From Campylobacter gastrosuis (GTDB lineage: Bacteria > Campylobacterota > Campylobacteria > Campylobacterales > Campylobacteraceae), in the NCBI RefSeq assembly GCF_030249845.1, contig NZ_JANURM010000016.1:1-41734 (forward strand): a stretch of 41,734 nucleotides of DNA, in the 5' to 3' direction. Below are positions 28,201-41,734 of the stretch, one piece after another. Numbering within the stretch: the stretch's first letter is position 1; each line of letters begins with the position of its first letter. The position numbers and the translations under genes were made by a program. The notes under the pieces were generated by a model. It was not told where the DNA came from. It did not search any database and saw only the letters and a program-made list of their open reading frames with translations.

Positions 28201-28302
28201 GGGTGCTGACGGGCCGCCTCCGCCCCCTCCACCGCCTCCGCCACAGGCACTTAGGCTAATTGCGATTAATGCGACCTGTGAATATTTTAACAATTTATTC
28301 AT
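25219..28302 (-). CDS. Subtilisin-family autotransporter lipoprotein, NalP-like, phase-variable
   Basis: The 1027-residue surface protease begins with a lipoprotein signal, MNKLLKYSQVALIAISLSAC, lipobox LSAC (C20), followed by Gly10. A Pro/Thr/Gly/Ser-rich linker (30-135) comes next, then an S8 protease domain: D162 (KIGVIDTD), H212 (NSHGTQVSA), oxyanion N310 (ATGN) and S385 (GTSCAAP). A passenger-associated repeat (GTGILYFTGSNSYTGETIVENGYL, about 505-530) leads to the stalk, and a C-terminal beta-barrel (about 760-1027) ends VGVKYKF. A C9 tract encodes T40-P41-P42-H43. Domain order, lipobox with Gly run and switch match Neisseria NalP/AspA. It interrupts the core gene order between moaA and 29452, so it may be acquired. 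The ribosome site is AAGGATA. Confidence 0.92.
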   Translation of the reverse strand: MNKLLKYSQVALIAISLSACGGGGGGGGGGPSAPTNTPATPPHTPNTPPDNNANLGGSGGSNSGGNLGGGSSGGTGSGGSVGGGSNFSGSSNTTANTTPPNNQGGAVTPPSGGNTNQTPPNSNQITPQPPQNLPKASVENLRPALIYSINDEDKVMKIGVIDTDFVEPRNVYFNSRDPNKDVGDTYKDENGQNRLILNEGSYKNANGIKNSHGTQVSAIIARYTKNMPIYGYTAKSTDKETAVSATNQEFMDADESNVRIINNSWGSLQDLKNPSSADDWRKIPAAKNGLFEYIAKQASTNSIIVFATGNENKDYASLESHIPVIYNDINARKGFIAVSATTYNQKAPYANKLGSLAKVYGISTDGRHTLFQNTLGGEKICEGTSCAAPVVSAAAANVWEKFPWMSNHLVVQSILSTANQLGQGDNVTTEPRDDVGWGVLNQARALKGPARFDKRLLADDEKNFVVADFNYRNYTKTKNGYTAKDRLTFSNDITGDAGFKKKGTGILYFTGSNSYTGETIVENGYLQIEKELTNSKVTIQNSGTLIARNDNQKVTIGNNNGYTLTNNGSLEVFGQGLTINGNYKAGANSRTAIDINTAQLEVKGTADMGNSRILAHINKVEQVPQNGQQEKTILTAQNLTNYSNYYTISDYINPYIKIDELKTEGNQVKVKFTRNSTNYVARAIAFSTTSSLNTANNLDTALNEVAANSSSPLSANALSIITATPFAITQTLQTLSAEIYASSQNALLNQNHQISQKMATRTLSDESGFYSSYDYNRYEISRQGFASGDTKSHLTSVGVDKSVDDFKFGVNLNRGEIKSEFTNLAGSSKITTNGVNFYAKADFSDFYTLFGTGVTWLENSVKRNLIIADDGSQINVKQNGKIYNLYAEAGYSFGFFTPFLAYELNMFRQNGIDEGQNFGIKSEKTSNDISSYLSGVRANFNAQNFSFNAALTYIYTPNADFDFKAKFVGGNSDITIKGINVAKNQVGLNFGVGYSFTPSFGVFSSYALNKGKDTKSQNLNVGVKYKF
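28176..28184 (-). repeat. C9 coding tract in the autotransporter (G9 on plus strand)
   Basis: Nine C on the coding strand fill codons 40-43. Ten C would end the protein after 49 residues and eight C after 54 residues, so only every third length is ON. Nearby Gly and Pro codons are mixed, so this is the one uniform tract. Confidence 0.85.
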
Positions 28303-28356: not shown

Positions 28357-28866
28357 CTTGTGTCATTTAGTAAAAATTATTATCGGCAAAATGGCTAAAA
28401 TTTTGAATTTTAAGCCAAATCACCAAAAAAACGCACAAAAACCCACCCTAAAAATGTGTAAAATCGTAACGAATTTTAAAACACAAAAATCATCGCGAAA
28501 TTTGTGATTTTTACCCACGCTCTTGTTTGCCGTTTTTTTATCTGTGTGCGTAACTTAAAGCACCAAACCTATGGCAAACGGCATTTTAGGTTAAAATTTC
28601 GTAAAATCTGCAAAAACACAATAATAAAAGAATGTTGTTACCTGCGAGCTATAAAAGTGGAGGCGACGCTACTTCGCTTTGCTTGTTCTAAAAGCAAAAC
28701 ACAAAAAGCCACCTTAACAAAATGCAAAGTTCTGCTAAAAATCACGTGAATTTTTATCAAAAACAGCATAAATTTTTAGTTTAAAATTTTAAAACGTAAA
28801 AAGCCGACTTGTCGGCAATTAAAACCTGTGCGAAGCACAGCAACGAAAGAGCGTTGTCGTGGGGGA

Positions 28867-28913
28867 GCAAACGAAAATCAAAATAATGTTACGACATTGT
28901 TTTGATTGTTTGC
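28867..28913 (+). ncRNA. Variable hairpin of repeat unit A2 (candidate structured RNA)
   Basis: The outer stem GCAAAC / GTTTGC (6 bp) and inner stem AATCAAAATAATGT / ACATTGTTTTGATT (14 bp, one T-G wobble) enclose a TACG loop, 47 nt in all. The equivalent hairpin in unit B2 has different stem sequence, the same loop and the same total length. Transcription has not been shown, so the RNA call and strand are inference. Confidence 0.45.
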
Positions 28914-29111
28914 GAGTTATGGCAAATGGAGAATGGGGCGACCCTACTTCGCTTTTCTCGTGATAAAAGCCGTATAAATTTTAGTTTGTAAATTTTGCTT
29001 TTTAATTAAAAATTTAAAAACGCTAGAACTTAAAAAATATAAACCTGCGAACGCCGATTGAAAATCGGCAAGTGTTCGCCACCTTAGAAGCGTTGTCGGG
29101 GTTGTGGGCTG

Positions 29112-29160
29112 TTAAGGGAGAAGGGGGTGACTTCGCAATTCAAGCCCCCTTCTCCCTTAA
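29112..29160. repeat. 16-bp palindrome of repeat unit A3
   Basis: TTAAGGGAGAAGGGGG pairs perfectly with CCCCCTTCTCCCTTAA across a 17-base loop. The matching structure in unit B3 has one more pair (C-G where this copy has T-G). The neighbouring P1 hairpin at 29047-29079 (GCGAAC, GCCGATT with a GAA loop and a 4-nt bulge) is also conserved in B3 and in B2. Confidence 0.75.
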
Positions 29161-29451
29161 AATAAAGTGAGCGACACCCTGAATAAAATGCAAAGTTCTA
29201 CTGCAAGCCAAGTCAAAAATTTACGTTTTTAAGTAACAAAAATTTATTTGCGAGTTACAACAAAAGCAGCCCTACTTCGCTTTGCTCGTTCTAAAAGCAA
29301 AATGCGAAGTTCTACTTCAAATCAAACACAAAATTTCCTAAAACACAGCAAGCAACACCAAAAAAAGCGAATTTCTACCAAAAACCGCACAAATTTTTAT
29401 CAAAAAACCACAATTTTAACGCAAATTTAACGCACTTAATCACGCTAAAAA

Positions 29452-29961
29452 CTAAATCAACCTATGCATTTTTAGCACAAACTCAACCCTGCCGATCCCA
29501 AGCCTTAGGTCTTTTGCGATGACTTCGCTACTTTTGCCGTCGTTAAATAGGCGGATTATCTGCTCCTCCTCGCTTTGCATACTTGGCGGCGTGATTTTGT
29601 TTATATCTCTGGTGCGTTCTTCAAGGTTGTAAATTCGGCTTTGTTGCTCACTTTGAAACTCATCAATCGTGCTTTCAATGCTTTTTAGCGAGTTAAAAAG
29701 TGGCAAAATTTTCTCGCTCAAACGGCTCTCTATCTTCTCATCAAGCTGTCTTTCAAGCACGCTTAAATCCACCACGCTGCCGTCATTTGTGCTTGTTAGC
29801 GATAAAAGCTGTTTTTTTAAGGCAAAATTCTCCTGAATCACACCCTCAATGACCTTTTCAAACCTTGAAAATTTCTTTTTAGTCTCAATCTCTTTTAGAT
29901 AAATAAAGCCCAAAAGTGCCGCTAAAATCACGCTAAACACCAAAAATAAAATATAATCCAA
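29452..29961 (-). CDS. Membrane-anchored coiled-coil protein with C-terminal HTH-like segment
   Basis: The 169-residue protein has an N-terminal membrane helix (about 3-22), a long predicted coiled coil (about 25-125, with heptads such as LERQLDEKIESRLSEKILPLFNSLKSIES), and a C-terminal helix-turn-helix-like region (EEEQIIRLFNDGKSSEVIAKDLRLGIGRVEFVLKMH) reminiscent of sigma-like or DUF2802/DUF6115-type tails. Function is unknown. It sits ten bases after the next gene, and I recall the same pair beside ubiA in C. jejuni (Cj0162c-Cj0164c). Confidence 0.7.
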   Translation of the reverse strand: MDYILFLVFSVILAALLGFIYLKEIETKKKFSRFEKVIEGVIQENFALKKQLLSLTSTNDGSVVDLSVLERQLDEKIESRLSEKILPLFNSLKSIESTIDEFQSEQQSRIYNLEERTRDINKITPPSMQSEEEQIIRLFNDGKSSEVIAKDLRLGIGRVEFVLKMHRLI

Positions 29962-29971
29962 ATTCTCTCCT

Positions 29972-30478
29972 TTACTCTCTGTTTTGTCTTATCATCACGC
30001 GCTCACGTGCCGTTACATAAGCGTTAAAATCGCTCTCATCATCGCCGTGCATCATCGTGATTTTTGCCGTTTTTTCATCAATTGCATTTAGATAAATCGC
30101 TATCGTTCGCTTTGGGAATATTGGCATTAAAATTCTAGCATAATAGCTCTTGCCACTTTGAAATTTTGGCTCATCAATACTAATGCCCTCAAAGCCAATG
30201 CCAGTGATTTTTGCCCTATTTTCAAGCTTAATCCTGCTTTTTTGCTCATTTTTTAGCGTATCGCTAAGCTCGTCAATCTTGCGATGAAGCTCAATTAAAA
30301 GTGTTAAAAGCACTTGGTCGCTCTCCTTTGTGTCGCCCCTTGCCTTTGCACGTTTTAGCCACGCTCCAAGTGCGTCCTCTTCGCTTCTTGTCATTGAGTT
30401 AAACTCAATAAAAAACTGCTCATTTTTATCATCATCAAGCGAAAATTCAATCTCTAAACTAGCCGGGACTAATCTCAT
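29972..30478 (-). CDS. Hypothetical protein with possible degenerate PilZ-like domain
   Basis: The 168-residue soluble protein has an acidic N-terminal region (LEIEFSLDDDKNEQFFIEFNSM), a helix (about 60-85), and a C-terminal beta-rich part, RAKITGIGFEGISIDEPKFQSGKSYYARILMPIF. The GIGFEGIS-x11-YxARILMP pattern loosely resembles PilZ domains that have lost the RxxxR loop, so c-di-GMP binding is not expected. The start overlaps the ubiA stop by four bases (ATGA). The PilZ relation is tentative. Confidence 0.55.
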   Translation of the reverse strand: MRLVPASLEIEFSLDDDKNEQFFIEFNSMTRSEEDALGAWLKRAKARGDTKESDQVLLTLLIELHRKIDELSDTLKNEQKSRIKLENRAKITGIGFEGISIDEPKFQSGKSYYARILMPIFPKRTIAIYLNAIDEKTAKITMMHGDDESDFNAYVTARERVMIRQNRE

Positions 30479-31344
30479 AATAAATCAACCAAAACAAAGA
30501 TGAAAAACATAATGCCAAGATAGCCATTTAGCGTGAAAAATGCCCTGTCAATCTTGCTAAAATCACGCCTTACAATGCGGTGTTCTTGCCATAAAATCGC
30601 CCCACTTAGCACCACGCCAAAATAGGCAAATCCACCAAGCCCAGCACCCCAGCAAAAAAGTAGCCAAAACAGCACAGCAAGAGCGTGAAACAAGGCTGAG
30701 ATAAAAAGCGTAGCGTCCTTGCCATAAATGCTAGGCACACTAAAAAGTCCGTTTTTAACGTCAAATTCTAAATCTTGAAGCGAATAAAGCAGGTCAAATC
30801 CAGCCACCCAAAAGACCACGCCAAGCGATAAAAGCACCGAATAAAGCGTAATTTCATTAGCAACAGCCACGACCCCAGCAATGGGTGCAAGTCCTAAACT
30901 AACGCCTAAAACCACGTGAGCAAGTGGGCTAAAACGCTTAAAAATTGAGTAACCAGCTAGAATGATTAAAATTGGCACGCTAAGATAAAATGCCAAGTCA
31001 TTAATAAAATACGCAACAAGCACGAAAACAAGGGCATTTAGGGCGATAAAAATAAGCAGATTATTTGCTCCAATCCTGCCATCAACGCTAGGGCGAGAGG
31101 CTGTTCGTGGGTTGTGCTTATCAATATCTCTATCGGCGTAGCGATTAAACGCCATCGCAAAATTTCTAGCACTCACAGCACACAAAACGCCTAAAACTAG
31201 CAGTTTAAAACCAAACCACGCCGAGTTAGTTTTAACAAAACTAGCCACAATCATCGCCGTAAAAATAAACGGCAGGGCAAAAATTGAGTGTTTAAAAACG
31301 ATTAAATCGCTGATATCTTTTAATAAATTTAGAAATTTCTGCAT
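30475..31344 (-). CDS. UbiA-family prenyltransferase (menaquinone pathway, MqnP-like)
   Basis: The 289-residue polytopic membrane enzyme has the two Asp-rich motifs of the UbiA family: NRYADRDIDKHNPRTASRP (residues about 68-86) and the second loop DLLYSLQDLEFDVKNGLFSVP (about 183-203). Campylobacter makes menaquinone by the futalosine route, so the likely role is prenylation of the naphthoate-type intermediate (MqnP) rather than 4-hydroxybenzoate; that choice is inference. It is divergently transcribed from miaA with an 80-base gap and couples to the hypothetical gene downstream. Confidence 0.9.
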   Translation of the reverse strand: MQKFLNLLKDISDLIVFKHSIFALPFIFTAMIVASFVKTNSAWFGFKLLVLGVLCAVSARNFAMAFNRYADRDIDKHNPRTASRPSVDGRIGANNLLIFIALNALVFVLVAYFINDLAFYLSVPILIILAGYSIFKRFSPLAHVVLGVSLGLAPIAGVVAVANEITLYSVLLSLGVVFWVAGFDLLYSLQDLEFDVKNGLFSVPSIYGKDATLFISALFHALAVLFWLLFCWGAGLGGFAYFGVVLSGAILWQEHRIVRRDFSKIDRAFFTLNGYLGIMFFIFVLVDLL

Positions 31345-31395
31345 TTTTATCCAAGAGTTTTTAGCGGATTTTACTCGGATTTTCTTTAAATTTAG

Positions 31396-31401
31396 TATAA
31401 T
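31396..31401 (+). promoter_or_regulatory. -10 box of miaA
   Basis: TATAAT lies 29 bases before the miaA start, in the divergent ubiA-miaA gap, followed by an AAAGGG ribosome site. No -35 box is visible. Confidence 0.55.
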
Positions 31402-31424
31402 TTTTCATTTTTAAAGGGTTTAAA

Positions 31425-32300
31425 ATGTTTAGACAATTTTGCATAATCGGCACAACAGCAAGTGGCAAAACCGACTTAGCCTTGCAAATTGCACGTGAAT
31501 TTGACGGCGTGATTTTAAGTCTTGATAGCCTCTCAATCTACCGCTACATTGACATCGCAAGTGCAAAACCGAGCAAAGATGATTTAAAAAGCGTTAAACA
31601 TTTTGGCATTGACTTAATTAATCCAGATGAGAATTTTAGCGTTGGCAGGTTTTTTGAAATTTACAAACAAGCAAAAGATTACGCCAAAAATCAAGGCAAA
31701 ATTTTAATAATCACCGGCGGGAGCGGATTTTATTTAAAGGCGATGATGAGCGGACTAACGCCAGATGTGCCAAAATATGACACGCCAGATAACGCCCAAA
31801 TTTACGAGCTAATCAGGCAAATTGACCCGGAATTTGGGGCGAAATTTAGCCAAAATGACACCTACCGCCTTCAAAAGTGGTTTTGTATCTATAAATTTAG
31901 CGACCAAAAGCCGAGTTTATGGCTTAAAAACAACACAAAAGAGCCGATTTTAGGCGAAATTTCAATCTTTGAAATTTTATGGGACGTGCCAAAAATCAGG
32001 GAGCGGATAGAAATTCGCACCAAAAATATGCTAAAAAATGGACTTCTTGATGAGGCAAAATGGCTTTTTGAGCATTACGATAGCGATTTAAAGCCACTTA
32101 AATCAATCGGCTTAAAGGAGTGTGGCGAGTTTTTTAGCGGTAAAATTTCAAGCCAAGATGAGCTTGAAACGCTGATTTTTACGCACACAGCTCAACTTGC
32201 AAAAAGACAGCGAACCTTTAACCGCTCGGCATTTTTAAACAAAAAGAGCGGAGATTTAGAATTTATTAACGATGAAGTTAGAAAATTTTTAAAATTTTAG
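31425..32300 (+). CDS. miaA: tRNA dimethylallyltransferase MiaA
   Basis: The 291-residue enzyme prenylates A37 of tRNAs reading UNN codons. P-loop GTTASGKTDLA (residues 9-19), the DSLSIYRYIDIASAKP segment (catalytic Asp and substrate-binding region), GGSGFYLKAMMSGL, and the tRNA-contacting C-terminal region AQLAKRQRTFNR are all present. Length is slightly short of E. coli (316), as usual in Campylobacter. It is the first plus-strand gene after the long minus-strand core block. Confidence 0.96.
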   Translation: MFRQFCIIGTTASGKTDLALQIAREFDGVILSLDSLSIYRYIDIASAKPSKDDLKSVKHFGIDLINPDENFSVGRFFEIYKQAKDYAKNQGKILIITGGSGFYLKAMMSGLTPDVPKYDTPDNAQIYELIRQIDPEFGAKFSQNDTYRLQKWFCIYKFSDQKPSLWLKNNTKEPILGEISIFEILWDVPKIRERIEIRTKNMLKNGLLDEAKWLFEHYDSDLKPLKSIGLKECGEFFSGKISSQDELETLIFTHTAQLAKRQRTFNRSAFLNKKSGDLEFINDEVRKFLKF

Positions 32301-32331
32301 CCAAGTTTAATGACTTTTTGCTAAAATCACT

Positions 32332-32352
32332 TAAACGTAAAGTAAACGTAAA
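32332..32352 (+). promoter_or_regulatory. Tandem direct repeat upstream of the amino-acid ABC operon
   Basis: TAAACGTAAAG is followed at once by TAAACGTAAA, 16-36 bases before the binding-protein start. Such a tight direct repeat may be an operator, perhaps for sulfur or cysteine control, but no regulator is identified. Confidence 0.3.
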
Positions 32353-32367
32353 TAAAAAGGATAAAAA

Positions 32368-33159
32368 ATGAAACTAAAAATTCTAGCAAAAACGCTATTT
32401 TTAGCAAGTGTGTCGCTATTTTTTGTAGCTTGTGGCAACGATGAAGCAAAGAGCCAAAGTGCCTTTGAGCGTATCAAAAAAGAGGGCGTTTTAAGGGTCG
32501 GCACAGAAGGCACGTATTCGCCATTTTCGTATCACAACGAAAAGGACGAGCTAGTGGGCTATGATGTGGAGGTCGCTCGTGCGGTGGGCGAAAAAATGGG
32601 CGTTAAGGTTGAGTTTGTTGAAGCACCTTGGGACGCTATGTTAGCGGCGTTTGATGCTGGTAAATCAGATGTCGTGTTTAATCAAGTAACAATAAATGAA
32701 GACAGAAAGAAAAAATACGACTACACCCTGCCATATATAAAATCAAGAAGTGCCATTGTCGTTCATAAAGACAACGATGATATTAAGGATTTTAGCGATT
32801 TAAAGGGTAAAAGCTCAGCTCATTCAGCCACTAGCAACTGGGCAAAACTAGCCGAGAGCTATGGTGCAAATATCGTAACCACCGATGGTTTTAGCAAGGC
32901 TGTGGAGCTAATCATCACAAAACGAGCCGACGCTACGATAAATGATGATGTTACATTTTATGATTATTTAAAACAAAAACCAGACGCGCCGATAAAAATC
33001 GCAAAAAACGGCGATGAGGCGATACTTTCGGCTGGACTTGTTAAAAAAGGCGAAACAGATTTAGTAAATGCAATCAACGAAGCGATAAAAGAGTTACAAA
33101 ATAATGGAAAAATAAAGGAAATTTCAATAAAATACTTCGGCAAAGATATTTCACAATAA
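32368..33159 (+). CDS. Amino-acid (probably cysteine/cystine) ABC binding lipoprotein
   Basis: The 263-residue type II binding protein has a lipoprotein signal (lipobox FVAC, C22). The SBP_bac_3 fold is seen in GVLRVGTEGTYSPFSYHNEKDELVGYDVEVARAVGEKMG, the substrate loop FNQVTINEDRKKKYDYTLPY (Arg and Asp that hold the alpha-amino/carboxyl group) and SATSNWAKLAESYGA. It resembles CjaA-type cysteine binders. The adjacent cystathionine enzyme supports a sulfur amino-acid ligand, though the exact substrate is inference. It is the first gene of a four-gene operon, with an AAGGATA ribosome site. Confidence 0.88.
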   Translation: MKLKILAKTLFLASVSLFFVACGNDEAKSQSAFERIKKEGVLRVGTEGTYSPFSYHNEKDELVGYDVEVARAVGEKMGVKVEFVEAPWDAMLAAFDAGKSDVVFNQVTINEDRKKKYDYTLPYIKSRSAIVVHKDNDDIKDFSDLKGKSSAHSATSNWAKLAESYGANIVTTDGFSKAVELIITKRADATINDDVTFYDYLKQKPDAPIKIAKNGDEAILSAGLVKKGETDLVNAINEAIKELQNNGKIKEISIKYFGKDISQ

Positions 33160-33171
33160 AAAGGATAGGTC

Positions 33172-33834
33172 ATAGAACGGGCATTTGAAATTATATTTGA
33201 GGCGATTATCCCACTTGCGGTAGCTGGGGCAAAAATCACGATACCACTTAGCATTATTTCATTTGCCTTTGGGCTTATTATCGCCATTATCACGGCACTT
33301 GCAAGGCTTTCAAAGATTAAAATTTTAAAGCTAATCTTTGGCTTTTATGTTTGGATTTTTCGTGGCACGCCTATGCTCGTTCAGCTTTTTATCGTATTTT
33401 ACGGACTGCCAAAGGTCGGCATTCAGTTTGACGTTTGGAGTGCGGCGATTGTCGCATTTAGCCTAAATGTCGGCGCTTACGCATCAGAGGCGATTAGAGC
33501 GGCTATACTTTCAGTGCCAAAGGGTCAGTGGGAGGCGGCACTCTCGCTTGGTATGGGTAAATTTATGGTTTTAAGAAGAATCATTGCCCCACAAGCGATG
33601 AGAATTTCAATCCCGCCACTCTCAAACACATTCATAAGTTTGGTTAAGGACACATCTTTGGCTGCTTCAATTACGATGGTTGATATGTTTATGGTCGCTC
33701 AACGCATTGCAGCAAGGACATTTGAGCCGTTTTTGCTCTATGTTTTAGTTGCGATTATGTATCTAATCATCTGCACAGCCCTTACGTTTTTGCAGTCGTA
33801 TTTAGAGAAACGCTCATCAAAATTTTTAGGATAA
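33172..33834 (+). CDS. Amino-acid ABC permease with apparent ATA start codon
   Basis: The 220-residue permease of the His/Gln/Cys type has membrane helices and the conserved EAA loop (EAALSLGMGKFMVLRRIIAPQAMRI) that docks on the ATPase. The first ATG in frame is at 33373, but coding sequence clearly runs further 5': residues ERAFEIIFEAIIPLAVAGAKITIP and two helices. An in-frame TAG at 33166-33168 closes the frame upstream. The only plausible initiator is ATA at 33172, seven bases after an AAGGA ribosome site, exactly where an ATG would be expected. Either translation starts at ATA at low efficiency or the start has been lost by a G-to-A change, possibly leaving only a 153-residue product from 33373. 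Confidence 0.85.
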   Translation: MERAFEIIFEAIIPLAVAGAKITIPLSIISFAFGLIIAIITALARLSKIKILKLIFGFYVWIFRGTPMLVQLFIVFYGLPKVGIQFDVWSAAIVAFSLNVGAYASEAIRAAILSVPKGQWEAALSLGMGKFMVLRRIIAPQAMRISIPPLSNTFISLVKDTSLAASITMVDMFMVAQRIAARTFEPFLLYVLVAIMYLIICTALTFLQSYLEKRSSKFLG

Positions 33835-33836
33835 AA

Positions 33837-34574
33837 ATGTCAGTAAAACTTATAAAAATTAATAAATTTTTTGGCGAAAATCACGTCTTAAAAGATATAG
33901 ATTTAGAAATTTACGACAAGCAAACAACGGTGATTTTAGGCAGCTCTGGCTCTGGCAAATCAACACTTTTACGCTGTATCAATCTGCTTGAAACCCCAGA
34001 TAGCGGTCAGATGTATCTTCGTGGATTTTATCTAAATTTTTCACTACCGATTAAAGAGCGACAAAAGTTGCCGTTTCGTAGCCACACTGGTATGGTTTTT
34101 CAGGATTTTAACCTATTCCCACATTTAAACGTGCTTGAAAATATCATTGAAGCACCGATAAATGTGCTAAAAATTCCAAAAGATGAAGCGGTAGAAACTG
34201 CTAGAAATTTGCTAAAAAAGGTCGGCTTATCGCAAAAAGAAAATGCCTACATAGCCACGCTTTCAGGCGGTCAAAAGCAAAGGGTGGCTATTGTTAGAGC
34301 CTTAGCGATGAAGCCATATTTTTTACTGCTTGATGAGCCGACATCAGCGCTTGATCCAGAGCTTGAAGCGGAGGTTTTAAAGGTGATTTTTGATCTAAGC
34401 AAAGAGCAACGCTCAATCATAATCGTAACTCACAATATGGAATTTGCAAGGCGTGCGGCGGATAGAATTTTATTTTTAGACAAGGGCAATATCATCTTTG
34501 ATGGCACGAGCGATGAGTTTTTTTATAACGACAACGATAGAATTGTAAATTTTATTTCAGCGATGAAATTTTAA
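33837..34574 (+). CDS. Amino-acid ABC transporter ATPase
   Basis: The 245-residue ATP-binding subunit powers the adjacent permease. Walker A GSSGSGKST (residues about 35-43), Q-loop MVFQDFNLFPH, signature LSGGQKQRVAI, Walker B YFLLLDEPTSALDPE and the H-loop THNMEFA are complete. It starts two bases after the permease stop. The family is the polar amino-acid type (GlnQ/HisP/TcyN-like). Confidence 0.95.
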   Translation: MSVKLIKINKFFGENHVLKDIDLEIYDKQTTVILGSSGSGKSTLLRCINLLETPDSGQMYLRGFYLNFSLPIKERQKLPFRSHTGMVFQDFNLFPHLNVLENIIEAPINVLKIPKDEAVETARNLLKKVGLSQKENAYIATLSGGQKQRVAIVRALAMKPYFLLLDEPTSALDPELEAEVLKVIFDLSKEQRSIIIVTHNMEFARRAADRILFLDKGNIIFDGTSDEFFYNDNDRIVNFISAMKF

Positions 34575-34583
34575 GGAGAGATA

Positions 34584-35726
34584 ATGAATCTAAACACACT
34601 TTTGGTTAAAGGCATTTCGGCTCACACCGACCAGCACAAGGCTGTCGTGCCACCGATTTATCTATCAAGCACATTTGCACAAGATGGGCTTGATGAGTTT
34701 GGCAAATTTTGCTACTCGCGCGGCTTAAATCCGACAACCGACGCCTTTGAGACACTATTTGCAAAGATTGAGGGCGCTAAGTGTTGCATTAGCTTCTCAT
34801 CTGGTATGGCAGCGACTACGGCAGCATTTCACCTGCTAAAAAGTGGCGATAAGGTGCTTTTAAACAACAATGTCTATGGCGGGACGTTTAGATACGCTCA
34901 CACGATTTTTGCCGATAATGGCATAAAATACGAGCTAGTTGATGATTTAAATGTAATCACAGAAGATGATTTAACGCCAGATGTTAAGATGATTTTTGTT
35001 GAGACGCCTTCAAATCCGCTTTTAAGGGTTACTGACATTAAAAAAATCGTGGAGCTAGCTCACAAAAAGGGAATTTTAGTAGTCGCTGATAACACATTTT
35101 TAACGCCGTATTTTCAAAAACTGCTTGACTTTGGCGTAGATGTCGTGGTCTATTCTGCTACAAAATATATCGGCGGACACGCTGACGTTATCGCTGGTAT
35201 TGCCACGACAAATGATGAAAAACTTGGTGAAAAGCTAAGGTTTATTAAAAACACGCTTGGCTCAAATTTAAGCCCGACCGATGCTTATTCGCTCATTCGT
35301 GGGCTAAAAACCCTAAGCGTTCGCTTTGATAGACAGATGCAAAATACGCACAAAATCATTGAATTTTTAAAATCAAACGAAGCCATTGATGTTGTTCATT
35401 ACGCTGGCTCACGCTCTGAATATGAGGCAAAAGTCCAAAAGAGCCAAGCTGGCGATATCGGTGCCTTAATCTCAATTGAGCTAAATCAAAATTACGACTA
35501 CAAAAAATTTGCAAAATCGCTAAAATTATTTGATTTAGCAGTGAGCCTTGGCGGTGTTGAGAGCCTGATTTGTCAGCCTTCATCAATGACACACGAGTCT
35601 TATCCAGCCGAGCTTCAAGAAAAAATCGGCATAAAGCCAAACCTACTTCGCCTAGCTATCGGCGTTGAGGACGCAAACGACCTAATCGCCGATTTAGCAA
35701 ACGCAATCAAGCTCTCAAAAAAGTAG
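34584..35726 (+). CDS. Cystathionine gamma-lyase/synthase family PLP enzyme
   Basis: The 380-residue enzyme has the Cys/Met-metabolism fold: YSRGLNPTTDAFE (Tyr/Arg phosphate loop), FSSGMAATTAAFHLL, NNNVYGGTFR, FVETPSNPLLRVTD, VADNTFLTPYFQKLL, and the PLP lysine in VVVYSATKYIGGHADVIAG. It lies nine bases after the ABC ATPase with an AAGGAG ribosome site, so import and catabolism or interconversion of the same sulfur amino acid are probably linked (MccB- or MetB-like). Which reaction dominates cannot be read from the sequence. Its TAG stop abuts the stop of the convergent ATPase gene. Confidence 0.9.
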   Translation: MNLNTLLVKGISAHTDQHKAVVPPIYLSSTFAQDGLDEFGKFCYSRGLNPTTDAFETLFAKIEGAKCCISFSSGMAATTAAFHLLKSGDKVLLNNNVYGGTFRYAHTIFADNGIKYELVDDLNVITEDDLTPDVKMIFVETPSNPLLRVTDIKKIVELAHKKGILVVADNTFLTPYFQKLLDFGVDVVVYSATKYIGGHADVIAGIATTNDEKLGEKLRFIKNTLGSNLSPTDAYSLIRGLKTLSVRFDRQMQNTHKIIEFLKSNEAIDVVHYAGSRSEYEAKVQKSQAGDIGALISIELNQNYDYKKFAKSLKLFDLAVSLGGVESLICQPSSMTHESYPAELQEKIGIKPNLLRLAIGVEDANDLIADLANAIKLSKK

Positions 35727-37865
35727 CTACATCCAAACCAAAACCACATCTTGGATAAAAATATCGCTCTTTTTTGGGGCGATTTTTATCTGATTTATCT
35801 GTAAATTTTTGCTCTTAATCTCAGCTAATTTTAGCTCAAATTCACGCTCTAAATCATCAATTTGAGCCAAAATTTCATCAACCCCAGCCTCGCTTAGTTT
35901 GACATCATTTCGCTCTTTTAAAAGGCGATTTGTGCTTTTTACGCTAGTTGCGATTTTTGAAACGCTCTTTTTGCCAAAAAATGCACCGATCAAACTAGCT
36001 CCGATATTAACCACAGCGTCAATCGTGCTTGTTTTTGCGTCGTTTTGCTCTTTAACAAGTCTTTGTCTTGCACTTGCTAATTTATCTTCAAGCCTTGCTT
36101 TTTGAGCCTTAAATTTCTGCTCTAACGCCTCTTGTTCTTTGCTTGAATCATTAAGGCTTAGTCTGGCTAAAAACTCCTGCTTACTTTCGCCCGGATTTGA
36201 GTTAAGGCGAGGCGAGGCGTAAAGATAAAGTCCCTCGTTTTGGTAGATAAAATCCCTTAAATCACTTTGTAAATTTTTGGTGTTTTTAAGGCGTAAAATT
36301 TCACTTGGCAATGGCATAAAAGTCGCATTTTGTGGCATTTGTGTGAAATTTAGCTCTGGATTTTTACTAGCATTATCCCAGCTAAAATTCTCACACGCCT
36401 CGCCTAAAAAGCTAAGGTCTAAATTTGTATCAATATTAAGCTTTGTATCATAAAATCTAACCCTTGCCGTGCCTAAAAAATAGGCGTTTAGCTCATTTTT
36501 ATCACTGGCAAAGAGCTGTTTTATCTCGTTTGAGATGAGCGGTCTTTGATTTTGCTCATCTTTGTGGCTAAAATTTTGGCGTTTTTGGCTCATTAAATTT
36601 TTAATCTCATCGGCAGTTAGCGGACCTTTTAGGTAGCTAAGTGCGTAGCGAGTGTTTAAAATTTTAAGGGCGTCATCGTGGATATTTTTTATTAAAAACT
36701 GCCTTTTTTCTAGGTTTGAAATTTGGCTAAAAAGCTCGGTTTTATCGCCGTTTAGTCCGCTAATTACACGCTCTTTATCCTGAGCGGTGATTAATCTACC
36801 AATAAACCACGTGCCTATGTTGCTAAGCCCTTTGTAGTCTAAATCCACTGGATTTTGGGTGCTTAAAACACAGCCAAGCCCAAAAGCACGAGCTTGTTTT
36901 AAAAGCGTGAGCATCGGCGTTTTTGAGGGTGGATTTGCATTTGGCGAGAAATAGCCAAAAATTTCATCCATATAAAGCACCGCTTTTAGCTCGTCCGTGC
37001 CACTTGTGGTTCTAATCCAAGCTAAAATTTCGTTTAGCAAAAACGTAACAAAAAACATTCGCTCGTTGTCGTTTAGGTGGGCTATGCTAAAAATGTTGCA
37101 TTTTGCCTTCGTGCCGTTAAAAAGCATATTTTTTATGTTTAGGCGTTCGCCGTTTGTGTAGGCTTTAAAATTTGCACTTGCAATGAGTAAATTTAGCCTA
37201 ACGCTAAGCTTAAAACGCTCATTTGCTGGGTAAAATTTCTCAATATCAAAGATGCCAATTTGACTAAATGGTGGCTCATTTATGGCTAAGATTAGCTCAC
37301 TTAGGCTTAAAGTTTTGCCCTCTTCAAAGGCGTTTGATAGAATTTTAGAGATTAAAATATGCTCTTTTGACGCATCATCAGCGTTGATTGAAAGTAGCGA
37401 TAAAATGGAGCTTGTAAGCGAATTTACATAATTTATCATCGCCTCATCATCTAAATTTTGTGGTGGCACAAAATCGCCTAAGAGTGCCACGCCGACCCCG
37501 CTACTACTTTTTGGCGTGTAAATGGTAAAATCCACGCTGTTTTTAAACTCGCTAACTCGCTCTAAATCATCATTAAGCCCTAGTCTTAGGCTATTTGCTA
37601 AATTTTCAGCCCTACTTTTATCATTTGTGTAAGTCAAAAACTCATCGGTGTTTTTTAACGCTAGGCAAAGATTGCCCATATCGCCCTTTGGGTCAATGAC
37701 AAAGCTTGGGATATTTTTAAGACAAATCTCTTCAAGTAGCGTGATACCAAGCCCAGTTTTACCTGAGCCAGTCATACCGATGATTAGAGCGTGTGTGGTT
37801 AAATTTTTACTTTTATAAAAAAACGGCTTATTCTCGCTCGTGCCTAGCCAAAGCTCGCCACTCAT
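35727..37865 (-). CDS. HerA/FtsK-like ATPase (DUF87-type)
   Basis: The 712-residue P-loop ATPase starts MSGELWLGTSENKPFFYKSKNLTTHALIIGMTGSGKTGLG with Walker A GMTGSGKT (residues about 30-37), then VIDPKGDMGNL, Walker B KAVLYMDEIFGYF, the sensor region LGCVLSTQNPVDLDYKGL and the RQFLIKN segment. The C-terminal about 130 residues form a long coiled coil with an IGASLIGAFFG-K stretch that may touch the membrane. HerA-like enzymes pump or remodel DNA; a role for this one is not known. It overlaps the PilZ gene by four bases (ATGA), so the two are probably one unit. Confidence 0.85.
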   Translation of the reverse strand: MSGELWLGTSENKPFFYKSKNLTTHALIIGMTGSGKTGLGITLLEEICLKNIPSFVIDPKGDMGNLCLALKNTDEFLTYTNDKSRAENLANSLRLGLNDDLERVSEFKNSVDFTIYTPKSSSGVGVALLGDFVPPQNLDDEAMINYVNSLTSSILSLLSINADDASKEHILISKILSNAFEEGKTLSLSELILAINEPPFSQIGIFDIEKFYPANERFKLSVRLNLLIASANFKAYTNGERLNIKNMLFNGTKAKCNIFSIAHLNDNERMFFVTFLLNEILAWIRTTSGTDELKAVLYMDEIFGYFSPNANPPSKTPMLTLLKQARAFGLGCVLSTQNPVDLDYKGLSNIGTWFIGRLITAQDKERVISGLNGDKTELFSQISNLEKRQFLIKNIHDDALKILNTRYALSYLKGPLTADEIKNLMSQKRQNFSHKDEQNQRPLISNEIKQLFASDKNELNAYFLGTARVRFYDTKLNIDTNLDLSFLGEACENFSWDNASKNPELNFTQMPQNATFMPLPSEILRLKNTKNLQSDLRDFIYQNEGLYLYASPRLNSNPGESKQEFLARLSLNDSSKEQEALEQKFKAQKARLEDKLASARQRLVKEQNDAKTSTIDAVVNIGASLIGAFFGKKSVSKIATSVKSTNRLLKERNDVKLSEAGVDEILAQIDDLEREFELKLAEIKSKNLQINQIKIAPKKSDIFIQDVVLVWM

Positions 37866-38932
37866 CTGTATGAGCTTTGAAGTTCGTTTAGCTCATCAAG
37901 CGTGTCTTGCACCCTTTTATCTATGAATTTATCAAGCTCTGGCGTGATTTGGTTGCGATTTTGCATACAATAACGCATAAATCCGTTCTGACTTATCTGC
38001 ACGATTAGCGTCAAATCAAGCGTGATTTTAACGCAGTTATCCTCGCTCACACAAAGCTCAAAGGTCGCCGTGATATTTTCGTGCGGATGAAATTTCACGT
38101 CCTCTTGGCTTAACACGCTAAGCCCACCCTTTGAAATATCATAAAGGTTGCCTAGAAGTTCGCTGTTTTCGCCTTTTAGCGTGACTCTTGTAAATTTATT
38201 TGGATGCACCCTTTGGTGCTTTCTAAGGCTGGCACTCATCTTTTCAACACGCTTAAAATTCGTAAGCGTAATCGTTTTTGATGAGAGATTAAAATCGCTA
38301 ATATCAGCCTTTATGTGCTTTAAAAAGTAGTCGTTTTTTAAAATGTAGGCGTTGCCCTCTTGCTTCATCGCTAGGATTTGATTTATCGTCGTTTGTAGCG
38401 TGACGCTGTCTTCGCCGATATTTAAGATCGTGCCGTCGTTTTGGATATTTACGCCGTCATAAAGGTTTAAAAATGTAACGCTTTTTTCTAGGTCTTTTAT
38501 CTTTTTAAAGGTGTTAATTGGGTGTTCAAAAAACATATCGTTGTTTAAATTTAGCACCGATGGCTGGGCTGAAACGACCTTTCTAGCCTTTAATCCTTTG
38601 ATGATAAAATCAATCCTAAAAACCAGCTCTCTAATGCCAAATTCGCTCTTTTTGGCGTATTGAATGAGAAAATTTAAAAAAACGTGCTCGGGTAGCCTAA
38701 TAACGCCACTTGCTTTACTTACAAGCACCTCAAAATCATCTTTTAGCTTTAAATTATCAAGCTCATCGCTAACTAAGGCTAGATAGATATCCTTTAAAAA
38801 CATAGTAACTTCATCGCTATCAAGCTCAAAGCTAACCTCCTTACAAAACTCCAATCCGTCCTTTAAAAAATCGGCTTCAAGCTCGTTAAAAAGAGAAATT
38901 TTGGTGTTAAAAAAGCCATTTACGAACATCAT
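37862..38932 (-). CDS. PilZ-domain protein
   Basis: The 356-residue protein has a long helical N-terminal part (about 1-125) and a middle domain (about 145-215, with GDxxxxLxTTINQILAMKQ), followed by a PilZ domain: R237-KHQ-R241 (RxxxR) and D265-ISKGG (D/N-x-S-x-x-G), both c-di-GMP-binding signatures. It is therefore a likely c-di-GMP effector, unlike the degenerate domain at 29972. Two Met codons are in tandem at the start. It is coupled to the HerA-like ATPase gene downstream. Confidence 0.85.
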   Translation of the reverse strand: MMFVNGFFNTKISLFNELEADFLKDGLEFCKEVSFELDSDEVTMFLKDIYLALVSDELDNLKLKDDFEVLVSKASGVIRLPEHVFLNFLIQYAKKSEFGIRELVFRIDFIIKGLKARKVVSAQPSVLNLNNDMFFEHPINTFKKIKDLEKSVTFLNLYDGVNIQNDGTILNIGEDSVTLQTTINQILAMKQEGNAYILKNDYFLKHIKADISDFNLSSKTITLTNFKRVEKMSASLRKHQRVHPNKFTRVTLKGENSELLGNLYDISKGGLSVLSQEDVKFHPHENITATFELCVSEDNCVKITLDLTLIVQISQNGFMRYCMQNRNQITPELDKFIDKRVQDTLDELNELQSSYR

Positions 38933-39008
38933 TTTTTTATCCTTGAAAAATTTTGGCTTATTATAATGTAATTTTGCTTTTGAAATTTTTATTTAAGAAG
39001 TATTAAAA

Positions 39009-39029
39009 AAGGCAGGGTTATCCTGCCTT
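39009..39029 (-). terminator. Terminator of ahpC
   Basis: An 8-bp stem AAGGCAGG / CCTGCCTT with a 5-nt loop is followed on the minus strand by T6. It lies seven bases after the ahpC stop codon and is a standard factor-independent terminator. Confidence 0.85.
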
Positions 39030-39035
39030 AAAAAT

Positions 39036-39635
39036 TTATAGTTCGCCTTCGTGTTTTGAAAGATACTCAGCCACACCAGCTGTGCTTGGTTTCATAGCTG
39101 CATCGCCCTTGTGCCAGCCAGCAGGGCAAACTTCGCCGTGCTCGTTTGTAAATAGCATTGTATCTACCATTCTTATCATCTCGTCAATGTTTCTGCCAAG
39201 TGGTAGGTCATTTACGACTGCGTGGCGGATTGTGCCGTCTTTATCAAGCAAGAACGAACCACGAAGTGCAACGCCAACCTCTTCAATAAGCACGTCAAAA
39301 CCACGTGAAATAGCGTGATTTGTGTCAGCCACGATTGGGAAGCGGACATTGCCGATACCGCCTTTATTTACCGGTGTCTCTTTCCACGCAAAGTGTGAGA
39401 ATTGATTATCTGTTGAAACCGCAATAACCTCTATGCCACGCTCTTTAAAGTCGTCGTATCTCTTGTCAAATGCGATGATTTCGCTAGGGCAAACGAACGT
39501 GAAGTCCATTGGATAAAAGAACACGACCGCTCCGTTTTTGCCTAAATTTTTGTATAGGTTAAAATCTGATTTGATTTGATTATCGCCTAAAACTGCCGCA
39601 GCTGTAAAATCAGGTGCTTTTTTTGTAACTAACAT
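39036..39635 (-). CDS. ahpC: 2-Cys peroxiredoxin (AhpC/TsaA)
   Basis: The 199-residue peroxidase has the peroxidatic Cys C49 in FTFVCPSEI and the resolving Cys C170 in GEVCPAGWHKGD, so it is a typical 2-Cys enzyme that reduces H2O2 and organic peroxides; thioredoxin (14970-15284) is a plausible electron donor. The strong ribosome site TAAGGAG lies six bases before ATG. A TATAAT and a 7-1-7 palindrome upstream suggest peroxide-responsive control of the PerR type. Confidence 0.97.
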   Translation of the reverse strand: MLVTKKAPDFTAAAVLGDNQIKSDFNLYKNLGKNGAVVFFYPMDFTFVCPSEIIAFDKRYDDFKERGIEVIAVSTDNQFSHFAWKETPVNKGGIGNVRFPIVADTNHAISRGFDVLIEEVGVALRGSFLLDKDGTIRHAVVNDLPLGRNIDEMIRMVDTMLFTNEHGEVCPAGWHKGDAAMKPSTAGVAEYLSKHEGEL

Positions 39636-39647
39636 TTTTTCTCCTTA

Positions 39648-39676
39648 TAATAAAATTTATTAATTGCGAAATTATA
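39648..39676 (-). promoter_or_regulatory. ahpC promoter and possible PerR/Fur-type box
   Basis: TATAAT lies at 39676-39671. The palindrome TAATAAA-A-TTTATTA at 39648-39662 has the 7-1-7 format of PerR/Fur boxes and sits between the -10 and the ribosome site, where a repressor would block transcription. AT-richness makes chance palindromes possible. Confidence 0.4.
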
Positions 39677-39979
39677 TAGCTAAATAGTAAATATATATTT
39701 AATAACTCAGTAAAATTTTAAAATTTAGAAAAATTATGCGGATTTTCTCGCTGGATTTTAAATTTTTAAAAACGCCAGAACGTAAAAGCCGACTTGTTGC
39801 CAGTTAAAACCTGCAAAAGCATAGCAATAAAAGAGCGTTTTTACTTGGTAAATGGCGAAATTTTTTGCGAAAAACACAAAATTTAAAAATGCTAAAACGT
39901 AAAAAAATAAAAACCAGCGAACGCCGATTGAAAATCGGCAGGTGTTCGCACGAAAGAGCGTTGTCGTGGGGAAGGTGGA

Positions 39980-40026
39980 GCAGACAGCAACAAAAATGGT
40001 ATTACGATACCATTTTTGTGATCTGC
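39980..40026 (+). ncRNA. Variable hairpin of repeat unit B2 (candidate structured RNA)
   Basis: The outer stem GCAGA / TCTGC and inner stem ACAAAAATGGTAT / ATACCATTTTTGT (13 bp) enclose a TACG loop, 47 nt in all, the same as the A2 copy. Stem sequence differs from A2 on both sides while pairing is kept. Transcription has not been shown. Confidence 0.45.
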
Positions 40027-40273
40027 GAGTTACGGCAAAGGAGAAGGGAGCGACCCTACTTCGCTTCGCTCGTTCTAGAAGTAGAACGCAAAAGAAGCCC
40101 CCTTAACAAAATGCAAAGTTCTACTTCAAACCACAAAAATTCTCAAAAAACAGCATATTTTTTTAGACTAAAATTTTAAAAATGTTGAAACGTAAAAAAT
40201 CTAAACCTGCGAACGCCGATTGAAAATCGGCAGATGTTCGCCACCTTAGAAGCGTTGTCGGGGATAAGGGTTG

Positions 40274-40322
40274 TTAAGGGAGAAGGGGGCGACTTCGCAA
40301 TTCAAGCCCCCTTCTCCCTTAA
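40274..40322. repeat. 17-bp palindrome of repeat unit B3
   Basis: TTAAGGGAGAAGGGGGC pairs with GCCCCCTTCTCCCTTAA across a 15-base loop that carries CTTCGC. The arms and loop are shared with A3. Confidence 0.75.
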
Positions 40323-40522
40323 AATAGAGTAAGCGACACTTTTTAAATTTCAAGCGAAGCTCTATTGCAAAATAAACAAAATTTTGTTTGCAAGTTATAA
40401 CCCTAATCCGCTTTGCTTGTTCTAAAAGCCACATTCTTTTAAAAAACAACACTTTTTAAATTTCAGGCAAAATTGTTATCAAAAACCAGTATATATAAAA
40501 ATTGGGTTTTAAGAATGAAAAG

Positions 40523-40559: not shown

Positions 40560-41734
40560 TTATTGTAGCAGTTTTAGGACGTTTTGTTGCACTGAGTTTG
40601 CTTGGCTCATTGCGTAGCTGCCTGATTGTGCTAGGATGTTTCTTTTTGAGAAGTTTGCACTCTCAGCTGCAAAATCAACATCTCTGATTTGACTCTCTGC
40701 TGATTTTACATTGACCTGAGTTACCGTGATATTGCTAACGGTTGCAACAAGCTGATTTTGCACTGATCCAAGGTCTGAGCGAATGAAGTCAAGTGTTTTT
40801 TGTGCTGATTCAGCGATATTCATAACTGCCATAGCACCACGTAGTGTCATTACGCCAGCTGATTGATTAGAAGTCATATCAGATAGCGACATACGCTGAA
40901 ATCCCATTGCAGCAGCAACGGATTTGTCTATTTGTCCCCTGATATCACGAAGTGAAACTGATTGTTGGTTGCCGCCGTCTTGACTAAACGCAGCCGAATA
41001 CGCACCATTTGCTTGACTGCCACCTGAAATTTTAATATCCCTGCCGTCAAGTCTTACAAGGTTTAAACGACCTACAAACATTGAGCTTGAAAGTTGTTCT
41101 GCAATTTTGCCTTGCATACCGAGAGCTTCACCTATCTTTTTCGCTTTTGCATTATCTCCACCCGTAATATTTATCGCACGTCCATCACGACTTGTTAGCA
41201 CCATTCTGCCTTGTGGATCTATTGACGCTTCTACGCCTGTTTGGTCTTTTACTGAGTTTATCGCATTTACTAAGGCACCATTGCTGTCGCCGTCTTTTAC
41301 AGCTAGGTCGCCGATTTTTACGCCATTGATTGTGATTGAATAAAGGTTACCAGCGGTTATTGCCTTACTACCTCTTAATGTTACATCGTAAGTAGCCCTG
41401 ACACCAGTTTCATTTGATACCTTATTGATGTTTTCAGCGAGTTTGCCCAGTCCGTTACCTAAACCAGTTGAGATTACGGCAGCTGCGACTTTTACGTTAT
41501 TTACGCCATCAACATTAATAAATGTAAGTGAAACCTTGCCACCAGCAGTGATGAGTTTTGAGCTTTCAAAACGTGTAAGTCCAATCTTATCCGAAGTCGT
41601 AGCACCAATGCTTGCTTTTACTACTTCGTTTGAATAAGCACCGATTTGAAATTCTTTGTTTGAGAATGTGCCGTTTAGGAGTTGTTGTCCGTTAAATGAA
41701 GTGGTATTGCCGATATTATCTAGCTCCTCCATTA
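40560..41734 (-). CDS. Flagellin, C-terminal part (5' end beyond window)
   Basis: At least 390 residues are visible, starting inside the N-terminal coiled region ([21 protein letters not shown]) and running through variable D2/D3 domains ([28 protein letters not shown]) to the conserved C-terminal D1/D0: [65 protein letters not shown], ending VLKLLQ. This is a full-type FlaA/FlaB flagellin. The first visible Met is internal; the reading frame is open to the window edge, so start and promoter lie outside. It uses the 14-bp terminator just downstream. Confidence 0.96.

Follow-up and report, generated by a model that had tools for sequence, protein, structure and literature searches.

Structured repeat arrays of Campylobacter gastrosuis as likely members of a family of palindromic DNA elements with exchangeable hairpin stems

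In this work, we analyzed two arrays of structured repeats, A and B, in a 41,734-nt stretch of DNA from Campylobacter gastrosuis (assembly GCF_030249845.1, contig NZ_JANURM010000016.1, positions 1 to 41,734), which is called the window throughout. The arrays are composed of units, the borders of which were drawn by eye, and the units carry hairpins denoted P1, P2 and P4. Of the neighbouring genes, the one beside array A (25219-28302) was autotransporter-like and the one beside array B (39036-39635) peroxiredoxin-like, both as judged by look. The genome to which the window belongs (G000, below the own genome) is a 2.24-Mb draft of 59 contigs with 5.14% contamination. The features of the arrays are as follows.

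28584-29411, plus strand: array A, lying between two minus-strand genes, 29452-29961 (3' end) and 25219-28302 (start), and made up of partial unit 28584-28784, unit A2 28785-28984 (with P2), unit A3 28985-29230 (without P2), then a partial unit
28803-28840, plus strand: P1 of unit A2, type b2, tandem hairpins GCCGAC-GTCGGC (28803-28816) and CTGTGC-GCACAG (28826-28840)
28842-28866, plus strand: linker AACGAAAGAGCGTTGTCGTGGGGGA preceding the A2 hairpin
28867-28913, plus strand: P2 hairpin of unit A2, A-type cassette, TACG loop, 3-nt bulge in the 5' arm
29047-29079, plus strand: P1 of unit A3, type b1, bulged hairpin with a 4-nt bulge in the 3' arm
29080-29097, plus strand: conserved linker CACCTTAGAAGCGTTGTC of unit A3
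29098-29127, plus strand: four G-tracts of unit A3, predicted quadruplex motif, the last two tracts within the 5' arm of P4
29112-29160, plus strand: P4 of unit A3, perfect 16-bp stem (29112-29127/29145-29160), loop TGACTTCGCAATTCAAG
39759-40471, plus strand: array B, lying between the 3' end of the flagellin gene (40560-41732, minus strand) and the minus-strand gene 39036-39635; partial unit 39759-39875, unit B2 39876-40169 (with P2), unit B3 40170-40340 (without P2), then a tail
39917-39949, plus strand: P1 of unit B2, type b1
39980-40026, plus strand: P2 hairpin of unit B2, B-type cassette, TACG loop
40209-40241, plus strand: P1 of unit B3, type b1
40260-40289, plus strand: four G-tracts of unit B3, predicted quadruplex motif
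40274-40322, plus strand: P4 of unit B3, perfect 17-bp stem (40274-40290/40306-40322)

An earlier note on this DNA had described 47-nt TACG hairpins in A2 and B2 with common flanks and with stems that were replaced on both arms but remained paired. We found both hairpins (GCAAAC...TACG...GTTTGC at 28867-28913 and GCAGA...TACG...TCTGC at 39980-40026) and the common flanks, AGCGTTGTCGTGGGG before and GCGAGTTA.GGCAAA after; B2 has additional bases (AAGGTGGA) 5' of the hairpin. Single-strand folds compared with dinucleotide shuffles gave z scores of -6.33 for A2 and -6.65 for B2, with 0 of 200 shuffles folding equally well. In an alignment of 13 P2 copies, all from the own genome, 96.7% of the 246 pair cells were standard, and the replaced stems do stay paired. 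Covariation was present as well, 8 of 19 pairs being changed on both sides (slid controls, at most 1), but it traces to about one event: six of the eight pairs show an identical split between four A-type and nine B-type copies, which indicates roughly one replacement of a whole hairpin and not many separate compensations. The remaining two pairs have one such sequence each. Further pair types numbered 11, not above the shuffled mean of 12.7 (480 of 500 shuffles were at least as high).

Both arrays exist as described; units of this kind, however, are not confined to them. Searched with the arrays, the own genome yielded 50 and 81 matching pieces, which together with the matches of model R1, used for the A2/B2 hairpin, define 17 places on 13 contigs, although the number of independent places may be lower, since two pairs of near-duplicate places (C15/C16 and two on C1) are possibly assembly duplicates. 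The near-identical stretches concerned are C1:146333-147807 and C1:357659-358577, and the end of C15 and the start of C16; one of them has a run of N, and they may be true or assembly duplicates. Two R1 matches lay outside recognised arrays (C9:6549-6605 and C9:6738-6797, 42.7 and 44.8 bits).

The unit in the own genome consists of an AT-rich arm, P1, a linker, an optional P2, and P4. Classified by P2 cassette and linker, the 17 P2-bearing units comprised two A-L1, three A-L2, seven B-L1 and two B-L2; classified by cassette and P1 type, the same units comprised one A-b1, four A-b2, five B-b1 and four B-b2, with three units unclassified in each case. As every combination of A or B with linker and with P1 type occurs, the modules have been shuffled as cassettes. 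The A2 and B2 hairpins are thus two versions of an optional cassette, P2, placed between linker and P4, and the difference between them is an exchange of whole hairpin cassettes. At one P2 pair, the half-way states C-G, U-G, C-A and U-A are all present.

The flagellin domain PF00669 has seven matches in the own genome, among them on C56, C9, C11, C32 and C8. Arrays sit after flagellin 3' ends on C8, C56, C11, C32 and, from sequence, C15, and several contigs end within flagellin genes.

What the family keeps is best seen in its core. There, P1, either one bulged hairpin or a tandem of two, is followed by a linker near CACCTTARAAGCGTYGTCGGGG and by P4, a long hairpin with a loop near GCGACTTCGCAATTCAAG; of the four G-tracts, the linker holds two and the 5' arm of P4 the other two. 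A covariance model of this P1-linker-P4 core, R2, was built from ten units of the own genome, G021 and G023, and it matches unit A3 at 29044-29162 (111.3 bits) and unit B3 at 40206-40324 (116.2 bits). Two cores folded against shuffles gave z scores of -7.4 and -4.3, indicating strong pairing. The claim of the earlier note that the fold and not the sequence is kept was supported here beyond P2: across three lineages the stems of P1 and P4 are replaced nearly completely, with P1 stems that read GCATGCAGTGC..., GCGACGCTTTGC... and GCGAACGCCGAT..., while the P1 bulge, the linker and the P4 loop are retained.

We tested the P1 bulge by leaving it free to take up to 6 nt on either arm. In 71 of 79 distinct P1 regions (those left once regions of odd length or lacking a recognisable linker were excluded), the best fold had a bulge of 3 nt (61 regions) or 4 nt (10 regions) in the 3' arm. 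The mean score was 28.0 in comparison to 18.5 for shuffles, of which 12 of 79 reached 24, with scattered bulges. A stricter P1 count was restricted to 3-nt or 4-nt bulges and to two non-Watson-Crick pairs at most, so its bulge and pairing figures hold by construction. The P4 stems also differ between lineages, and their 5' arm is 87% purine among 45 distinct copies, counted after copies without a fitting loop pattern or with a stem of fewer than 9 pairs had been dropped.

Four G-tracts with loops of 1-9 nt were found on the plus strand of 82 of 101 distinct R2 hits (6 of 107 having been dropped as identical) and on the minus strand of none, with a shuffle mean of 1.4, a count biased by the training of R2 on units that bear G-tracts. 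A fairer set is provided by 20 elements of a sister clade defined by their end repeats, described below; 15 of them carry the motif on the plus strand and 1 on the minus strand (shuffle mean 0.12), the orientation of these elements having been set by motifs that include a GGGG. Among the R2 hits, no P2-bearing unit was seen by eye to carry the motif. The G-rich strand is predicted from its sequence to form a quadruplex, which would compete with P4.

The earlier note had held that a lack of further copies in related genomes would speak against its view. Such a lack was indeed found for the A2/B2 hairpin, which turned up in none of the other genomes searched: R1 matched 1 of 298 genomes of the order, under the stricter filters of that scan, and the A-type stem pattern with 3 mismatches allowed occurred in only 1 of 48 genomes of the genus. 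The element that carries the hairpin is, by contrast, widespread, as R2 matched 38 of the 48 genus genomes with 1-29 matches each (E<=0.001) and had no match in the other 10. Across the order, 22 of 298 genomes were matched at E<=1e-4; 9 of these belong to the genus, 4 to other genera of the same family and 9 to a different family. The genomes of the other genera gave at least 6, 11, 12 and 12 matches, and those of the other family one each except for G242 with 8; all these are lower bounds, since at most 12 candidates were scored per genome. The weakest order-wide match (G210, 4.2e-5) may be due to chance. One protein from the other family has an identical counterpart in a record under the name Helicobacter anatolicus. 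A core lies 3' of argH both in the own genome (L080) and in G020 (L106), which are only distantly related species, and at 1412-1518 of L297 (G091), which comes from another genus within the family, a core lies directly 3' of a flagellin gene (PF00669/PF00700), as in the window. Two exact patterns had no match in viral contigs, and a viral origin was set aside. A match of the array query in G035 fell in coding-looking sequence and was taken, by eye, as chance.

A weak match in a sister genome, G005, led to a region of the same design as the window units. With this region as query, we obtained 93 matching pieces in G005, 67 in G021, 60 in G023, 53 in G058 and 27 in G059; elsewhere there were 6 weak pieces in the own genome, 3 in G020 and 1 in G060, and none in G003 or G019. 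The sister units have the same two P1 types, including the type b2 of unit A2, and the same linker positions, with other stems. They are bounded by an inverted repeat of ~23-31 bp, CCGAGACCCGCACCTTGAAAATG / CATTTTCAAGGTGCGGGTCTCGG, the pattern of which matched forward and reverse 20/12 times in G021, 21/21 in G005, 20/12 in G058 and 23/14 in G023, the reversed-pattern control giving 0. An inward pair of end repeats, 199-418 bp apart with at most 6 mismatches, was present in 20 of 20 places fetched, places selected because the match list suggested inward pairs. The elements between inverted repeats (n=29) measure 199-655 bp and are therefore too short to encode a transposase of their own. At the outer ends, repeated AT-rich modules flank the unit and blur its exact borders.

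In a scan of named genomes, the end motif matched two contigs of Campylobacter showae CC57C, and the repeat family therefore occurs in that species; another pattern had no match in the same scan, the collection for which may leave out genomes near that of the window. The gene context in the sister clade was codirectional at 22, convergent at 7 and divergent at 2 of the 31 called sites (34 were examined, and 3 were dropped for want of a called neighbour). By eye, four loci (L122, L124, L147, L194) have an additional module on the right, AATCAAGATTT...AAATCTTGGATATAATTATC, with what looks like a promoter TATAAT close to the end repeat, and four others (L187, L188, L191, L196) have a hairpin, GTAAAAAACAACC-GGTTGTTTTTTAC, 3' of P4, which resembles a two-way transcription terminator.

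Copies were also found inside genes, although not in the genus, where 0 of 107 matches lay inside an open frame of at least 200 codons. Of 38 matches in other genera and families (E<=0.01), which come from stretches fetched and include weak and reverse-strand shadow matches, 6 were open-frame copies, representing 5 distinct loci, all in another family. The in-frame cores lie in HsdS (PF01420) at L279, L281 and L298 and in a type III methyltransferase (Mod) at L287; at L288, at a contig start, the core joins IlvD in frame. In an alignment of 16 HsdS proteins, the insert is present in L279 and in nine others (P0121-P0125, P0127, P0131, P0132, P0137) and absent from P0158 and P0203, and the other four have unrelated sequence there. 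In comparison to the solved HsdS structure 1yf2, 54 residues face 18 between two aligned blocks. For the methyltransferase, a like insert is present in P0002 and P0003, whereas P0010 and P0020 read EIKALFENDNTTLFATPKPEAL at this place and P0035 reads the same with one V. The alignments with homologs support two of these copies, one in HsdS and one in Mod, as insertions. In addition, a core adjoins uninterrupted type I genes at L283, L284 (second hit) and L286; the link to restriction genes is a plain count from few loci.

Comparison of orthologous sites revealed turnover within the elements. In the sister species, the inner modules differ between L184/L193 and L202, L188 and L203, and L187 and L195, the right flanks being 83-96% identical. 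Elsewhere in the genus the inner modules differ within L248/L270, L265/L231/L232 and L249/L239, with 150-nt flanks 93-99% identical.

The earlier note had offered an undescribed RNA family among its readings, and a functional structured RNA, with a transcribed plus strand and the P1/P4 fold under selection, for example as a regulatory or mRNA-stabilising 3' element, would account for several of our observations: the unpaired linker and loop are conserved where stems vary, the P1 bulge is kept, and the elements lie mostly 3' of at least one gene, with only the 2 divergent sites as exceptions. In P4, moreover, G-U pairs outnumber A-C mismatches by 36 to 12, an excess which RNA or a protected G-strand would both give. 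However, the plus strand folded better in just 14 of the 29 elements from the sister clade and in 10 of 25 segments of the own genome (Wilcoxon p 0.72 and 0.66), and the folds of the minus strand were slightly richer in G-U (328/3291 vs 249/3159 and 273/2480 vs 214/2294). P1 has 10 G-U against 9 A-C (17 vs 19 in a looser count). Rfam had no match at gathering score in the window and none at E<=1 for 8 sister loci; for 9 loci of the own genome there were four matches at E<=1, all below gathering score, and in 12 loci from other genera and families, searched at E<=0.01, a tRNA gene near L282 was all that scored. The copies within coding frames of another family and the range of 0 to 29 matches per genus genome do not suit an RNA gene either. 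An RNA family was rejected as the first choice on account of the strand symmetry and the balanced G-U and A-C of P1, and we consider a functional RNA improbable. As neither strand folds better, the data agree more closely with a mobile palindromic DNA element of modular build than with an RNA gene.

Alternatively, the repeats may be kept as DNA structures, a quadruplex or cruciform influencing recombination or expression of neighbours such as flagellin; the pilE quadruplex of Neisseria is comparable in kind. This would explain why the register of the G-tracts on one strand is kept though the stems change, and the purine-rich 5' arm of P4 as well as the arrays that adjoin several flagellin genes of the own genome and the core by flagellin in another genus agree with it. 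On the other hand, 10 of 48 genus genomes are without an R2 match, copies elsewhere lie in open frames of unrelated genes, and the quadruplex is predicted only and its motif was not seen in P2-bearing units among the R2 hits. We regard this explanation, too, as rather unlikely. Least probable of all are old repeats without selection or present mobility, in which template switching or gene conversion copies arms and covariation is a by-product: the single A/B split behind six of eight pairs, the modules shared by dispersed copies and the half-way states are as expected, but species whose argH proteins are ~70% identical still have similar linkers and loops, which is hardly expected of neutral intergenic DNA, and copies in other families and in coding frames need transfer or great age.

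We therefore favour, as the likelier explanation, that both arrays of the window represent clustered copies of a palindromic DNA repeat, the fold of which is kept and the stems of which are replaced, and which is probably a non-autonomous mobile element with swappable hairpin cassettes. The transposase-mobilised hairpin element proposed by the earlier note was accordingly the best-fitting of its options, although no transposase was found in a search of the own genome for PF01797. Copies might arise when a folded single-stranded or cruciform intermediate inserts, recognised via its linkers and loops. The linkers and loops would then be what the mobilising machinery recognises, and the stems would need only to pair; they could drift, be copied arm to arm, or swap between copies. 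Copying of one arm from the other may keep the arms complementary, recombination between dispersed copies may trade whole hairpins, and insertion would be tolerated at harmless places.

Several findings count against this explanation. Our evidence for mobility includes neither a target-site duplication nor a site between genes that is cleanly empty; argH, as an empty-site test, has a core at 2 of 30 loci (both strands, fetched flanks), but the next gene differs among the loci read in their proper orientation. Orthologous copies in several species mean that many copies are old. The Y1 transposase family PF01797 had 0 matches in the own genome, with 5 of 14 control genomes positive, and no other enzyme family was sought. 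The end-repeat pattern is absent from the own genome, G020 and G060, the own genome having by eye only an imperfect counterpart. The core, with a GC content of ~0.5 (the outer modules are AT-rich by eye), exceeds the usual value for a miniature inverted-repeat transposable element (MITE). The two HsdS proteins without the insert have a recognition domain that is different though alignable, and 4 of the 20 end-repeat-defined elements have no G-tract motif on either strand. To these are added the G-U excess of P4, the training bias of R2, and the way in which the 20 places were selected and oriented.

A bolder version of the mobile palindromic element is doubtful, though conceivable. The arrays would then represent a new class of Campylobacterales mobile palindrome, which would combine a G-quadruplex/hairpin switch with fixed linkers, have its stems swapped like cartridges, insert both intergenically and in frame into specificity parts of restriction systems, and possibly help to shuffle those genes.

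As for known classes of element, the traits of several were found in part. Terminal inverted repeats, a MITE trait, occur in the sister clade only, and a palindromic repeat in gene open reading frames that stay in frame, a trait of the Rickettsia palindromic elements (RPE), occurs at 5 loci of another family and not in the genus. A hairpin of 20-40 bp with an unpaired GTAG/CGTC end tag was not found by eye in P1, P2 or P4, which end otherwise; CGTC is present inside the linker of some copies. Intrinsic terminators were rejected, as by eye no T-run follows P4 on either strand, and so were integron attC sites, as no cassette genes were seen by eye, and IS200/IS605-type ends (RAYT), as there is no Y1 transposase in the own genome.

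The family is of interest because it is non-coding, occurs in several families of a single order, and retains both its fold and its single-stranded parts although its stems are exchanged wholesale. A single-lineage unit used as a DNA query reaches only to the closest sisters; the wider family became visible only by the covariance model, and such elements are therefore easily missed. Our results also call for caution, since covariation among repeat copies can stem from the exchange of inverted-repeat cassettes, in which case it does not prove an RNA. Should the in-frame insertions be confirmed, a mobile palindrome has added length to restriction genes of this order, as RPEs have done to genes of Rickettsia. 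With the G-tracts on one side only, a role of a DNA quadruplex can be tested directly.

The ERIC repeats of enterobacteria are intergenic palindromes found family-wide, with nested insertions and one consensus, and their stems are not known to be swapped; our repeats resemble them, by general description, as family-wide intergenic palindromes. In the open-licence literature searched, including the accessible parts of PMC5217627, PMC3049150, PMC6567213, PMC3733652 and PMC10969869, the present repeat family is not described, and neither Campylobacter nor Helicobacter is named in those parts of PMC3733652 and PMC10969869. The repetitive extragenic palindromes (REPs) tagged with GTAG or CGTC, including dRS3 of Neisseria, are described in the accessible part of PMC3733652 as short palindromes with a heterogeneous stem and a conserved unpaired motif; those of CGTC type are without a dedicated transposase, and GTAG members extend to the epsilon division. 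The likeness consists in heterogeneous stems beside conserved unpaired sequence, whereas here the hairpin ends bear no unpaired GTAG/CGTC tag, the units measure ~110-650 bp, and the own genome has no RAYT/Y1 match.

The RPEs are, in the available portion of PMC10969869, palindromic repeats of ~150 bp that in many cases sit within unrelated genes and preserve the frame. The Campylobacter/Helicobacter cores are similar in size and also occur in open frames, a likeness of description; they belong to another phylum, have in-frame copies only outside the genus, 4 of 5 of these in restriction genes, and possess a G-tract/P4 core and larger modular forms. In the pneumococcal BOX elements (boxA-boxB(n)-boxC), the end modules form the outer structure and the inner modules vary in number and kind (PMC3049150, accessible part), and the elements insert into each other (PMC10969869, accessible part). 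The arrays of the window resemble BOX in design only, as modular intergenic repeats; their inner stems are replaced outright, their linkers and G-tracts are conserved, and the family to which they belong extends over several families of one order.

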